In this document: positions 43,524 through 47,216 of the stretch, piece by piece
Numbering within the stretch: position 1 is the first letter of the stretch
How the letters are laid out: every line of letters starts with the position of its first letter
Assembly (NCBI RefSeq): GCF_024362525.1
Contig: NZ_CP101458.1
Span: 2,170,001 to 2,234,000 of the forward strand
Origin: Natrononativus amylolyticus
GTDB lineage: Archaea > Halobacteriota > Halobacteria > Halobacteriales > Natrialbaceae
DNA length: 64,000 bases
Direction: 5' to 3'
Made by a program: the position numbers and the translations under genes
The notes under the pieces: model-generated
The model's input: only the letters and a program-made list of their open reading frames with translations
Told to the model about the DNA's origin: nothing
The model's database searches: none

Positions 43524-43756
43524 CTCGAGGATCCCGATACGAACGCGTAGGCAGCGTCGAACGACGAGGGTGAGGCGTCAACGAGAGCGGCGGCGGCTCG
43601 AGTGAGGATGCGATAGAGCGCCTGACGGGGAGTTGCAGTCCGTGTGGCCGTCAGTACTTATTTCGGACGCCCCTTCCCAGAGATCGCAATTTTATACTAA
43701 CACCTCTAAAAAGATAAGATAGATTGATTTCCGTTGGCAATAGTCTTGTGAATACA
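43524..43756. other. Spacer where base composition shifts to AT-rich
   Basis: 233 bp after aglB. From about 43680 the sequence becomes AT-rich. TTTATACT at 43690-43697 is a likely TATA box for the micro-peptide gene, giving a leader of about 35 nt. Confidence 0.45.
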
Positions 43757-43894
43757 ATGTCCGCAAAAGACAGCATGAAGGATTACCTCGAAGCACACCC
43801 TCGAATGATCGGCGTACTATTTACACTAGTCTTATTGCTAGGACAGGCTAGTTCAGTAGCAGCGACTGCCTCTTCAACAAACCCTGGTCCATAG
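43757..43894 (+). CDS. 45-residue hydrophobic peptide (DUF7503-like)
   Basis: A short gene starting MSAKDSMKDYLEAHPRMIGV, continuing with one hydrophobic helix (LFTLVLLLGQASSVAATA) and ending TNPGP. A charged helix, the AHPRMIGVLF turn and the GP end resemble, from memory, small haloarchaeal proteins annotated as DUF7503. The helix could be a membrane anchor or a signal peptide cleaved near VAAT, releasing a very short tail. It ends 5 nt from the 3' end of the CHAT protease gene on the opposite strand, in an AT-rich pocket. Function unknown. Confidence 0.75.
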   Translation: MSAKDSMKDYLEAHPRMIGVLFTLVLLLGQASSVAATASSTNPGP

Positions 43895-43899
43895 ATCTC

Positions 43900-45996
43900 T
43901 TATTCGGTGGGGTTTTCTGTATTTAGATTTCCATGAAAACCGAACTCATCATTCCACATTATAGAGTTATTGTCAAGAACAGGCATTCGAACCCATGTAA
44001 GATATTCCTCAAGTTCATCCTCAGACACATCTGATAGAGATATTTTACCCGGAATTAGATGTTTTCCAGTAGCCGTTTTGATGTTTGGCGACGTTGCAGA
44101 TCCAACACCAAGTTCTTTAGTTGAGTACGATCTGAAGAAAGTGTCAAACAGTACACCATCTCGGTTTAAACTCATAACTGTTGGCGCTCCACCATCCGAC
44201 TGAGCGATATCCGTTGACCCATCACCGACGATGAGGTACTGGCTTCCGAGTGTTGTAGTATTTTTCACAAGCTCAAGTGTTGCACGGAGCGGAAAACCAA
44301 GATTCAGTAACCGTGCCATCGTTTCACCGACCTCAACAGCGTGTTCGTTCACAATGTCCCCAACGGTAGCAATCCCACCGAAAGCACCGCGGCGCGAAAG
44401 GGCGAGTCCCTGCTCGTAGGATTGACACGCGTTAAGAAAGAAGACACCAATATTGACTGATGATAGCGATCTCACATCGAGATCTCCATCAGAACACTGT
44501 AATCCATCAGAAGTTGCATGGCCAATATAATGTAAGAAGTCATATCCGCCACTGGTTAATAGTAATTTGAGTTCTTCGCTTGAGACCCCAAACCTCGAAT
44601 CAACATCGAATGGTAATGCTTCTCGAGTACCATACGTCTCATCTATCATATCGTGCTCGCTAATCATTCGAGCATCGTTGCAAACAACGAGAATTTCAAT
44701 CGATTCGTTTCTTGCTTTTCGATCAAGTTGGTTCTGGTATGCTTCGAGAGTTGCTTTCGAGGCACTACGTGGAATATGGGAACCAAACCAAGCGTGTTCA
44801 ATCGATTCATCGATCACCGACGGTTCAATGAAAGTGAGTGAATTTTTTTGATCGGTTGGGGATGGTGATCGGTACTGCCGTGCCGATCGAACAAACTGCG
44901 TTTTTCCGTTAGTTGTTATTTTATTCTGGGTTATTACCCCTCGTGGTTCTCGAACGATTCCGAGTTCATTAACGATGAATGGAAGGATTTCGGCTCCGGC
45001 AGGGGTAGACGGAACGTGCGCTGTCAATGGCCAGCGAGGGATGTACGGCTCGAGTCGATCGTATGGTACCTCGAGATAACGCTTGAGTTGCGTCGAAATC
45101 GACGCGTTGTAGGTGTCCGCCAGATCGAACGGAAGATCCGCTTCGAGCGCGGTTCGTTCGTGGAGGTCGTCCTGGTACAACCCCTCCGTACGCACTAAAC
45201 AGTCGAGGAGGAGAAAGCGCTTGAGCGTCCGTGCTATGTCGTCTTCCAGCCGGCGTGTAACACCAAGTTCGTGAGATACACTCGGTGTTTTGATCGCCGC
45301 CGTAGAACCCGGTTCGATATTTGCACCGAGGTAGAACGAAAGCGGGGCGACCGCGTACAGGTTCTGGAGGGTCGGTGGAACGGAGATCGTAACGACGGTT
45401 TCCGGTTGCCGAATGGCGGGTGGAATCTCCAGTTCCGGGCCGCGTTCAATCAACGGCGGGTGGCCTCGCAGCGTCGGCCACGAGCGTTCTGGGGACGTCG
45501 TCTTGAGAGCCGAAGAAAACGCCGAAACGGCTTTCATCAGCTGTTTCGGTTCGTCCGGCGTACGTATCGTTCCCGCGGGCTGCTCGTGGAGGGATCGAGC
45601 GCCGATCTCGATAGTCGTCCGTTGGTCGAACGTCAAGTGGATCGAATCGATACCGGTTTTGATCTGGCCCGGACTCTCGATACGACAATAGAGTTTGATC
45701 GGTCCGCCCAGCCCGATAAACCGGATATCGTCGTCGAAAGACGCGCTTTCACCGACCTCGAGACTCCGGGTCGTCTGCCCGTTTTCATCGTGGAGGTGGA
45801 CAGAGTATCGCTGGTCGAAAACGAGCGACGCGGTGCTGACCGAGCAGGCGGTGTCGACCGGAAAACAAAACTGCTCAGAGTCGATGAGCGTCGGAGAAAC
45901 CGAATCGGATGTTCGTACGTGGAGCCGGCGTTGCTCTATCGAGTCGTATACCTCGAGTCCAACCGGATCCGTTGTCCCTTCGAATTCAATAGCCAT
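43900..45996 (-). CDS. CHAT-domain (caspase-like) protease
   Basis: A 698-residue protein. Residues 1-380 form a beta-rich region with no known motif. The C-terminal part has the CHAT pattern: YDFLHYIGHATSDG with candidate catalytic His493, and VFFLNACQSYEQG with Cys524, then GAFGGIATVGDI and the helix ETMARLLNLGFPLRATLELV. CHAT proteins are cysteine peptidases of the caspase clan, often activated by partner proteins in defence or cell-death systems. The C-terminal half is visibly AT-richer (many TTT, AAT, ATA codons) than neighbouring genes. It lies 56 nt after the Cdc6-like gene on the same strand. Substrate unknown. Confidence 0.85.
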   Translation of the reverse strand: MAIEFEGTTDPVGLEVYDSIEQRRLHVRTSDSVSPTLIDSEQFCFPVDTACSVSTASLVFDQRYSVHLHDENGQTTRSLEVGESASFDDDIRFIGLGGPIKLYCRIESPGQIKTGIDSIHLTFDQRTTIEIGARSLHEQPAGTIRTPDEPKQLMKAVSAFSSALKTTSPERSWPTLRGHPPLIERGPELEIPPAIRQPETVVTISVPPTLQNLYAVAPLSFYLGANIEPGSTAAIKTPSVSHELGVTRRLEDDIARTLKRFLLLDCLVRTEGLYQDDLHERTALEADLPFDLADTYNASISTQLKRYLEVPYDRLEPYIPRWPLTAHVPSTPAGAEILPFIVNELGIVREPRGVITQNKITTNGKTQFVRSARQYRSPSPTDQKNSLTFIEPSVIDESIEHAWFGSHIPRSASKATLEAYQNQLDRKARNESIEILVVCNDARMISEHDMIDETYGTREALPFDVDSRFGVSSEELKLLLTSGGYDFLHYIGHATSDGLQCSDGDLDVRSLSSVNIGVFFLNACQSYEQGLALSRRGAFGGIATVGDIVNEHAVEVGETMARLLNLGFPLRATLELVKNTTTLGSQYLIVGDGSTDIAQSDGGAPTVMSLNRDGVLFDTFFRSYSTKELGVGSATSPNIKTATGKHLIPGKISLSDVSEDELEEYLTWVRMPVLDNNSIMWNDEFGFHGNLNTENPTE

Positions 45997-46052: not shown

Positions 46053-47216
46053 TCAGGTTCGACGATTGTCGTGTTTCGAAGCGAGTGAGCGGAATGCGAT
46101 CGATGGAAACCGAGGCTCGACGGTACTCGAGCGACCCCCGTCCTCGCCGGTCGAAAGCGGCGTACGCACCAGCACCTCGAGGTCCGCGAGTTCGTAGAGA
46201 ATTCGGGTGACGGTGCCGGCGGTCAGCGACGAGTCGGCGGCGATCGTCTCCGCGATCTCCTGAATCGAGTGGGTTCCGACGTCTCCAGCCAACAGCTCGA
46301 GAAGAACGCGCTGGCGGGTAGAAGACAGTGCGAGCGCGCGGTCGACGTGAACGCTGTCGGGCGGGACGTCCGTCTTCGCGCGCTCGAGGTGTTCGCCCTC
46401 GATCCGATCGCGACCGGCGCGGGCGGCGAGGACGGCGGCGGCGAACAGCGCAGCGAGCGCGTCGTGGGCGTTTCCGTCGGCCCACGCGGCCAGGTCGCGA
46501 AGCCGATCGTGCTCGAGCGCGCCCGGCGCCAGCCCCGCCGACGCTCGCTCGGTGATCACGTCGACGAGTTCGTGGCTGCGGTAGGAGGGAACCGAAACCG
46601 CGGCGTCCGTCCATCCGTCGGGCCGTTGCTGGCCGACGGCGACGAGCGAGGTGCGGTCGTCGACCGGTTTCAGGAGTTCGCGGGCGCGGTCGACCGAGGG
46701 TGTCGCCGGTTCGTCGTGGTGGTCGAGCGCGACCACTGCCCGCCGGTCGTCCCCCTCGAGCATCCCTCGCAACCGGTTTCGGAGGTCGTCGGTTCCGACG
46801 CCGCTCGAGGGGACGGTCTCCGCCGAGATTGCGGCGAGAACCGCGCGGTAGAACCCGAACGCGCTGGTTGCGCGTCTCGCGTCGACGTAGACGAGCCACG
46901 TCGACGACTCGGCGTCTCCGGTTCGAGTCGTGGTCCCGATCGGCCGACCTCGAGCGGCGAGGCGGTCGGTGAGCGCGGAAAACAGCGCAGTAACGACCGC
47001 GGAGGTTCCCGATCCCGGCGGCCCGACGACCGCGACGTCCGGCGGGAGATCACCGTCGAAAACGGGCTCGAGTTCGTCGAGGAGCTGTTCGAGAACGGGA
47101 CCGCGGCTGACGGGTTCGGACGGATGGACGGCCGGATTCAGATGGTCGCGGTCGGCGACGATCGATCGATCGCGGCGGGCCGAGCGTCGCCGGTCGATGC
47201 GCTCGTGAAGGTCCAT
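46053..47216 (-). CDS. Cdc6/Orc1-like ATPase with altered P-loop
   Basis: A 387-residue AAA-type protein with a C-terminal winged helix (about 300-375; SIQEIAETIAADSSLTAGTV). The P-loop reads GPPGSGTSA (65-73): the essential lysine is Thr71. The Walker B region is AVVALDHHDEP. The ATG overlaps the glpC stop by one base (TAATG), so it is translated as the last member of the glp operon. Canonical Orc1/Cdc6 proteins bind replication origins. This one is more likely a regulator or pseudo-ATPase; the winged helix suggests DNA binding. Confidence 0.75.
   Translation of the reverse strand: MDLHERIDRRRSARRDRSIVADRDHLNPAVHPSEPVSRGPVLEQLLDELEPVFDGDLPPDVAVVGPPGSGTSAVVTALFSALTDRLAARGRPIGTTTRTGDAESSTWLVYVDARRATSAFGFYRAVLAAISAETVPSSGVGTDDLRNRLRGMLEGDDRRAVVALDHHDEPATPSVDRARELLKPVDDRTSLVAVGQQRPDGWTDAAVSVPSYRSHELVDVITERASAGLAPGALEHDRLRDLAAWADGNAHDALAALFAAAVLAARAGRDRIEGEHLERAKTDVPPDSVHVDRALALSSTRQRVLLELLAGDVGTHSIQEIAETIAADSSLTAGTVTRILYELADLEVLVRTPLSTGEDGGRSSTVEPRFPSIAFRSLASKHDNRRT

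Follow-up and report, generated by a model that had tools for sequence, protein, structure and literature searches.

As a rule, a protease of the caspase/separase/CHAT fold is associated with the cell cycle, with defence or with cell death. In the haloarchaeon Natrononativus amylolyticus a gene predicted to encode such a protease stands tail-to-tail with a gene for a 45-residue micropeptide, the two stop codons lying 5 nt apart, and the question raised by this locus is what the two products have to do with each other. The window, that is, the whole stretch of DNA analysed, comprises 64,000 nucleotides (contig NZ_CP101458.1, positions 2,170,001 to 2,234,000), and all coordinates count from its first letter. 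The 698-residue protease with its motifs HYIGHA (489-494) and LNACQS (521-526), the micropeptide and the short gap between them had been described in a first-pass annotation, the coordinates of which were confirmed. The features of the protease gene are:

43900..45996, minus strand: predicted clan CD/CHAT-type cysteine protease, 698 aa (AlphaFold, Foldseek; Pfam CHAT below cut-off)
44518..44520, minus strand: codon of the catalytic His493, invariant among homologues
44425..44427, minus strand: codon of the catalytic Cys524, invariant among homologues
44656..44679, minus strand: N440 D441 ... E447, candidate S1-pocket residues (conservation, β1-α1 junction in the model)

The AlphaFold model of the protease, built from an alignment of 86 homologues, has a mean pLDDT of 91.9. 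His493 follows a strand formed by residues 485-491 and Cys524 a strand formed by residues 516-522, as in clan CD enzymes and in agreement with the caspase-haemoglobinase fold, in which the histidine is located after β3 and the cysteine after β4. The window protease possesses the conserved His-Cys dyad of CHAT/clan CD proteases, both residues being unchanged in 89 of 89 full-length homologues and in 187 paired copies; conservation among homologues was a test named in the first-pass annotation, and the dyad is invariant in every paired copy. Foldseek returned SAVED-CHAT (8TL0, E 2.6e-7), gingipain RgpB with its prodomain (4IEF, E 4.7e-7) and separase (5FBY) at a probability of 1.00, along with further separase entries (5FC2, 7NJ1), while Craspase TPR-CHAT (8D9G, E 1e-3) ranked further down. 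Because the best matches cover little of the query, it is probably the protease part that aligns. By sequence, the only PDB match is 8TL0 (E 0.047). The structure prediction proposed earlier for the N-terminal 380 residues was carried out and depicts a beta-rich domain and a short helical region, for which a Foldseek search against the PDB gave no clear solved structural relative.

The designation as a CHAT protease therefore holds for the clan CD/CHAT-type fold but not for the family profile, since the score against Pfam CHAT (PF12770) is 15.7 bits at a cut-off of 24; close relatives have no Pfam CHAT match either. Predicted fold and catalytic motif together place the protease in a divergent branch of clan CD outside PF12770. 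Among paired copies Asn440 and Glu447 are conserved to 100% and Asp441 to 95%, and the three are mostly lost in paralogues devoid of the dyad. In the model they are located at the β1-α1 junction, which we take to be the site of the S1 residues in clan CD enzymes (caspases, MALT1, RgpB). Where annotation was seen, the protease genes are mostly labelled 'hypothetical protein'.

The micropeptide gene on the opposite strand shows the following features:

43757..43894, plus strand: DUF7503 micropeptide gene with C-terminal Gly-Pro (PF24335 match, convergence with the CHAT gene, dN/dS)
43886..43891, plus strand: terminal Gly-Pro codons (GGT CCA)
43712..43729, plus strand: likely TATA/BRE element of the micropeptide gene (AGATAAATTTATT-like box conserved in relatives)

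The reading frame extends from the ATG at 43757 to the stop codon at 43892-43894, and its 45-residue product (MSAKDSMKDYLEAHPRMIGVLFTLVLLLGQASSVAATASSTNPGP) belongs to Pfam family DUF7503 (PF24335), with a score of 73.7 bits (E 8.3e-21) well above the curated cut-off of 27 and with the whole domain covered (positions 1-42 of 42). NCBIfam and PADLOC gave no match for the micropeptide or the protease of the window, neither of which corresponds to a known anti-phage system in PADLOC. The median dN/dS of the micropeptide is 0.17 in close pairs. In relatives a AGATAAATTTATT-like box is found about 28-45 nt upstream of the micropeptide ATG, a spacing that points to a leaderless transcript. The micropeptide is encoded by a real gene, probably with its own promoter.

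The most conspicuous element of the family is its C-terminus. A terminal Gly-Pro is present in 149 of 153 distinct DUF7503 peptides, encoded by all four glycine and all four proline codons and followed by any of the three stop codons. Since synonymous codons and stops vary at this position, selection acts on the protein level; conservation as an RNA or terminator element is ruled out by the occurrence of every synonymous codon and stop. Besides Gly-Pro, two segments are nearly fixed, [HN]P[RK] preceding the helix and Q-A-G-x-VAA following it, and the stretch between AAG and the constant GP is variable. Five DUF7503 copies, including two from the genome of the window, lack GP despite an intact protease, and a search for protease residues tracking GP loss in these five copies gave no signal. 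The two copies in question stop where GP would come (L002 1501-1617, ..NNGTVT; L003 1501-1683, ..NGGAIS), and the proteases beside them have intact dyads. A displaced DUF7503 copy in locus L135 likewise ends without GP (..GSTIS).

Pairing of the two genes extends far beyond the window. A scan of named haloarchaeal genomes gave 80 DUF7503 loci, and after two loci at contig ends (L085, L145) had been set aside, the protease gene was found immediately downstream and convergent in 75 of the 78 testable ones, which bears out the association of the peptide with CHAT genes in other genomes that the first-pass annotation had named as a test. Natrialba swarupiae (L088) keeps DUF7503 beside aglB and has lost the protease, locus L095 harbors a transposase-like gene in the place of the protease and no protease, and the two genes of L135 lie apart. 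Adjacent pairs are convergent in 188 of 189 cases, their stop codons lying a median of 14 nt from each other; these figures are to be read as a description and not as a significance test, since loci overlap between surveys and near relatives are included. Each of the three DUF7503 genes in the window's genome converges with a protease homologue, and a convergent protease is present at all 33 DUF7503 loci that were retrieved from the class surveys. Of 392 sampled genomes of the class, 336 contain DUF7503 and 366 the protease; Haloferax species carry the pair as well (L101, L112, L116).

The presence of a peptide follows the state of the catalytic dyad. All members of the protease family that were detected in 44 genomes were examined together with their flanks. 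Of 82 dyad-intact genes, 48 are accompanied by DUF7503, 16 by another convergent -GP peptide (in one of these, L216, GP is located just short of the end) and 18 by none. A peptide therefore adjoins 64 of 82 dyad-intact but 0 of 26 dyad-lost genes (Fisher 1.5e-13), a strong pattern that comprises few independent events, because a tree from N-terminal protease columns contains only about two independent dyad losses and the correlation is thus phylogenetically unpowered. In the window's genome, all three intact copies have DUF7503 and all three dyad-lost copies are devoid of it. The dyad-less paralogues (L237, L238, L227, L007-L009) form two separate clades and occur in tandem clusters, with three in a row in L237, which suggests a non-catalytic role. 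A third intact subfamily with the motif NGCRS (L192, L194, L196, L207) is arranged in tandem in L192 and L194; its convergent neighbour encodes a TRAM-like protein with an acidic tail, not a -GP peptide.

A second kind of micropeptide is found beside a sister subfamily of the protease, which is characterized by the motif NACGS and has no DUF7503 match nearby; the genes around it look like glyA/folD at one end and a tbsP-like regulator at the other. In Natrialbaceae (the family name of this group, f1, was derived from contigs in common with named records), 27 of 30 copies have an unannotated, convergent, polar open reading frame of about 40 residues at the 3' side of the protease gene (L244-L273), in most cases with a TATATA-like box about 30 nt upstream of the ATG. 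The middle of these peptides is variable and the end, [VI]STY[GS]GP, is conserved, usually as RAKR[VI]STYGGP or RASG[VI]STYSGP with varying codons. A search for the end motif in 91 whole genomes gave 39 matches, 36 of them no more than 700 nt from a gene of this protease family, and the reversed pattern gave 0. Pfam and NCBIfam contain no match to this second family. Elsewhere the NACGS subfamily is accompanied by a hydrophobic -GP peptide in L204, L214, L215 and L217, and by none in other families. Judged from their sequences, the two micropeptide families share position, orientation and the -GP end, whereas hydrophobicity is not shared. What they have in common is consequently the -GP tail and not the hydrophobic helix, and a role of the helix as the active element finds no support.

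The locus itself is old. The gene order aglB-DUF7503-protease-(Cdc6-like)-glpC-glpB is kept across Natrialbaceae, and Haloarchaeobius has the same aglB-to-glp order without the Cdc6-like gene, which argues for a long residence of the unit at this site. Synteny and near class-wide presence rule out recent acquisition, and the pair, as far as the genomic record indicates, represents an old, vertically inherited haloarchaeal unit and not a recently acquired defence island. The GC content of the window's protease gene is 0.44 in the 3' half (43900-45000) and 0.58 in the 5' half, compared with approximately 0.62-0.70 in the surroundings. The AT-rich pocket reported earlier is thus real for this copy but is not a trait of the locus, since syntenic orthologues have about 61% GC; local replacement or drift may account for it. 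Outside the class, the protease family extends to one further family (f19) of the phylum. Of the homologues there (L274-L277), at least L274 has the GH and NxCxS motifs, and no convergent -GP micropeptide was found beside the four. On the far side of the protease gene the window contains:

46053-47216, minus strand: Cdc6/Orc1-like gene (Pfam AAA_16 5.7e-14, Cdc6_lid 1.7e-7)

This gene, with which the glp operon ends, is located upstream of the protease gene at a distance of 56 nt, and its P-loop reads GPPGSGTS. The threonine in place of the Walker A lysine had been taken for damage; GxxG[SA]GTS is kept in 41 of 43 relatives, so the lysine-less P-loop is a family trait. As a third component of the unit the gene was rejected, for it is missing between protease and glpC in relatives such as L040, L042-L044, L082, L089, L097 and L107. 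By its distribution it is optional and belongs with the glp side.

Taken together, a functional link of the peptide with proteolysis is likely. Peptides occur only with intact proteases, the tail is their most conserved common part and the body may be hydrophobic or polar; hence it is most likely the tail that engages the protease. In our best model, which is put forward tentatively and at somewhat less than even confidence, the two genes constitute a control unit of a clan CD/CHAT protease and a pseudosubstrate micropeptide regulator. The protease would be a soluble, caspase/separase-like cysteine protease, and the micropeptide, whose gene is read in the direction of the protease gene from a separate, probably leaderless promoter, would consist of a working part, namely the C-terminal -x-Gly-Pro tail, and an adaptor, namely a membrane-anchoring helix in DUF7503 and, in the STY[GS]GP family, a variable body of polar character. 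Most likely the Gly-Pro tail would occupy the active-site groove in the manner of a pseudosubstrate that cannot be cleaved and would keep the protease inactive, with DUF7503 at the membrane, for as long as stress has not eliminated or overridden the micropeptide. Pairing, orientation, the intact dyad and protein-level selection on the tail are observed directly and the fold is predicted; physical contact, inhibition in preference to cleavage, membrane anchoring and the stress trigger are what the model would add. The pseudosubstrate reading is favoured because securin, the best-known partner of this fold, blocks separase by an FFP-ended motif: EIEKFFP inhibits as a pseudosubstrate, and exchange of FP for RE renders the motif cleavable (PMC6858450). 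Against the model stand the five DUF7503 copies that lack GP beside an intact protease, and the 18 of 82 intact proteases devoid of an adjacent -GP peptide imply that not every subfamily would depend on the micropeptide as an inhibitor. Furthermore, the residues of DUF7503 suggest an N-in topology, which would position the GP tail outside the cell and away from a soluble cytosolic protease, a difficulty for the pseudosubstrate and the substrate readings alike.

The latter is the main rival and is possible, if somewhat unlikely: the micropeptide would be a substrate of the protease, cut at [HN]P[RK] before the helix in DUF7503 and at KR before VSTYGGP in the second family, and the product would have a membrane or signalling function. 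In agreement with this, [HNR]P[RK] precedes the helix in 147 of 153 DUF7503 peptides, 128 of the 153 have no charged residue beyond it, KR or a related pair precedes the conserved heptapeptide in most second-family copies, and the conserved N440/D441/E447 are modelled at what is presumably the S1 site of clan CD enzymes. The positive-inside rule alone, however, would predict a basic residue ahead of a transmembrane helix, and six second-family peptides have SG or SA in place of KR.

Alternatively, DUF7503 could be a secreted precursor with a signal-peptide-like helix that is cut after A-x-A to give an extracellular, pheromone-like peptide of 8-10 residues ending in GP, which CHAT processes or responds to. 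The order of helix, almost invariant VAA and short tail, as well as the variability between AAG and the constant GP, would fit such a precursor, but nothing resembling a signal segment is present in the second family, and a secreted tail would be out of reach of a cytosolic CHAT, which makes this scenario improbable.

A still less probable proposal is a horizontally gained toxin-antitoxin or abortive defence module, in which a hydrophobic membrane toxin is unleashed or restrained by the protease. It draws on the adjacency of a small hydrophobic peptide and a CHAT protease, on the role of CHAT proteases in type III CRISPR defence (PMC10028731, PMC9729208), on the AT-rich window copy and on relatives on 23 haloarchaeal plasmids. 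A horizontally acquired module would be patchy and mobile, whereas the pair occupies a conserved syntenic chromosomal locus and is near-universal in the class, in spite of some plasmid copies; no relatives were found in IMG/VR viral contigs and phage records, which excludes viral carriage there, and PADLOC has no match. Moreover, the second micropeptide is not hydrophobic, and Natrialba swarupiae keeps the peptide without CHAT. The earlier notion of an acquired system is thereby abandoned. That the micropeptide is functionally unrelated and the two genes are merely kept convergent by a common bidirectional terminator would suit stop-to-stop gaps of often a few nucleotides, but is very improbable and already largely refuted by the orientation being retained in different genomic contexts, by two unlike peptide types converging on one protease family and by the missing peptide beside all dyad-less paralogues surveyed.

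Among known systems, the pair can be compared with the proteases recovered by Foldseek. Separase and securin share with it a caspase/CHAT-type fold and a dedicated partner polypeptide with a short motif that could fill the active site. Securin, in contrast, is long and disordered with an internal motif, whereas the partner described here has about 40-60 residues, a C-terminal motif and a convergent gene; separase has no sequence match to the window protease and a helical N-terminal domain where the model of the latter is beta-rich with a short helical region, and inhibition is proposed by analogy only. SAVED-CHAT and the Craspase TPR-CHAT (Csx29) are the best Foldseek matches across the protease domain, but the window unit contains no SAVED or TPR domain according to Pfam, has no cas genes nearby and represents a core-genome locus (neighbours aglB and glp) with a micropeptide partner. 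Gingipain RgpB has the fold in common and was solved in complex with its pro-segment (4IEF), yet is a secreted bacterial enzyme with a pro-segment encoded in cis and no sequence match.

For DUF7503, listed in Pfam as of unknown function, the analysis adds a CHAT partner and the -GP rule, and a second micropeptide family, absent from Pfam and NCBIfam, is placed at its side. A literature search retrieved no paper on DUF7503, on the CHAT domain in connection with haloarchaea or on the pair; on the wider topic it yielded CRISPR, gasdermin and unrelated caspase work only. In nearly all haloarchaea, as seen here, a protease of the caspase/separase/CHAT fold forms part of the core genome. In Haloferax volcanii a strong, specific, stress-linked housekeeping caspase-like activity with preference for Asp at P1 has been measured since 2010, with no gene assigned (PMC3615174). 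The caspase fold of the present proteases fits this activity, while their conserved acidic residues do not predict Asp at P1; they are natural candidates, and the link is offered as a suggestion. The broadest form of the proposal, that convergent micropeptides of unlike bodies, with nothing but a C-terminal Gly-Pro in common, control a caspase/separase-like protease throughout the class and could explain the orphan haloarchaeal activity, we hold to be rather doubtful. Haloferax is genetically tractable, so the pair is accessible to direct testing in the genus in which the caspase-like activity was measured.
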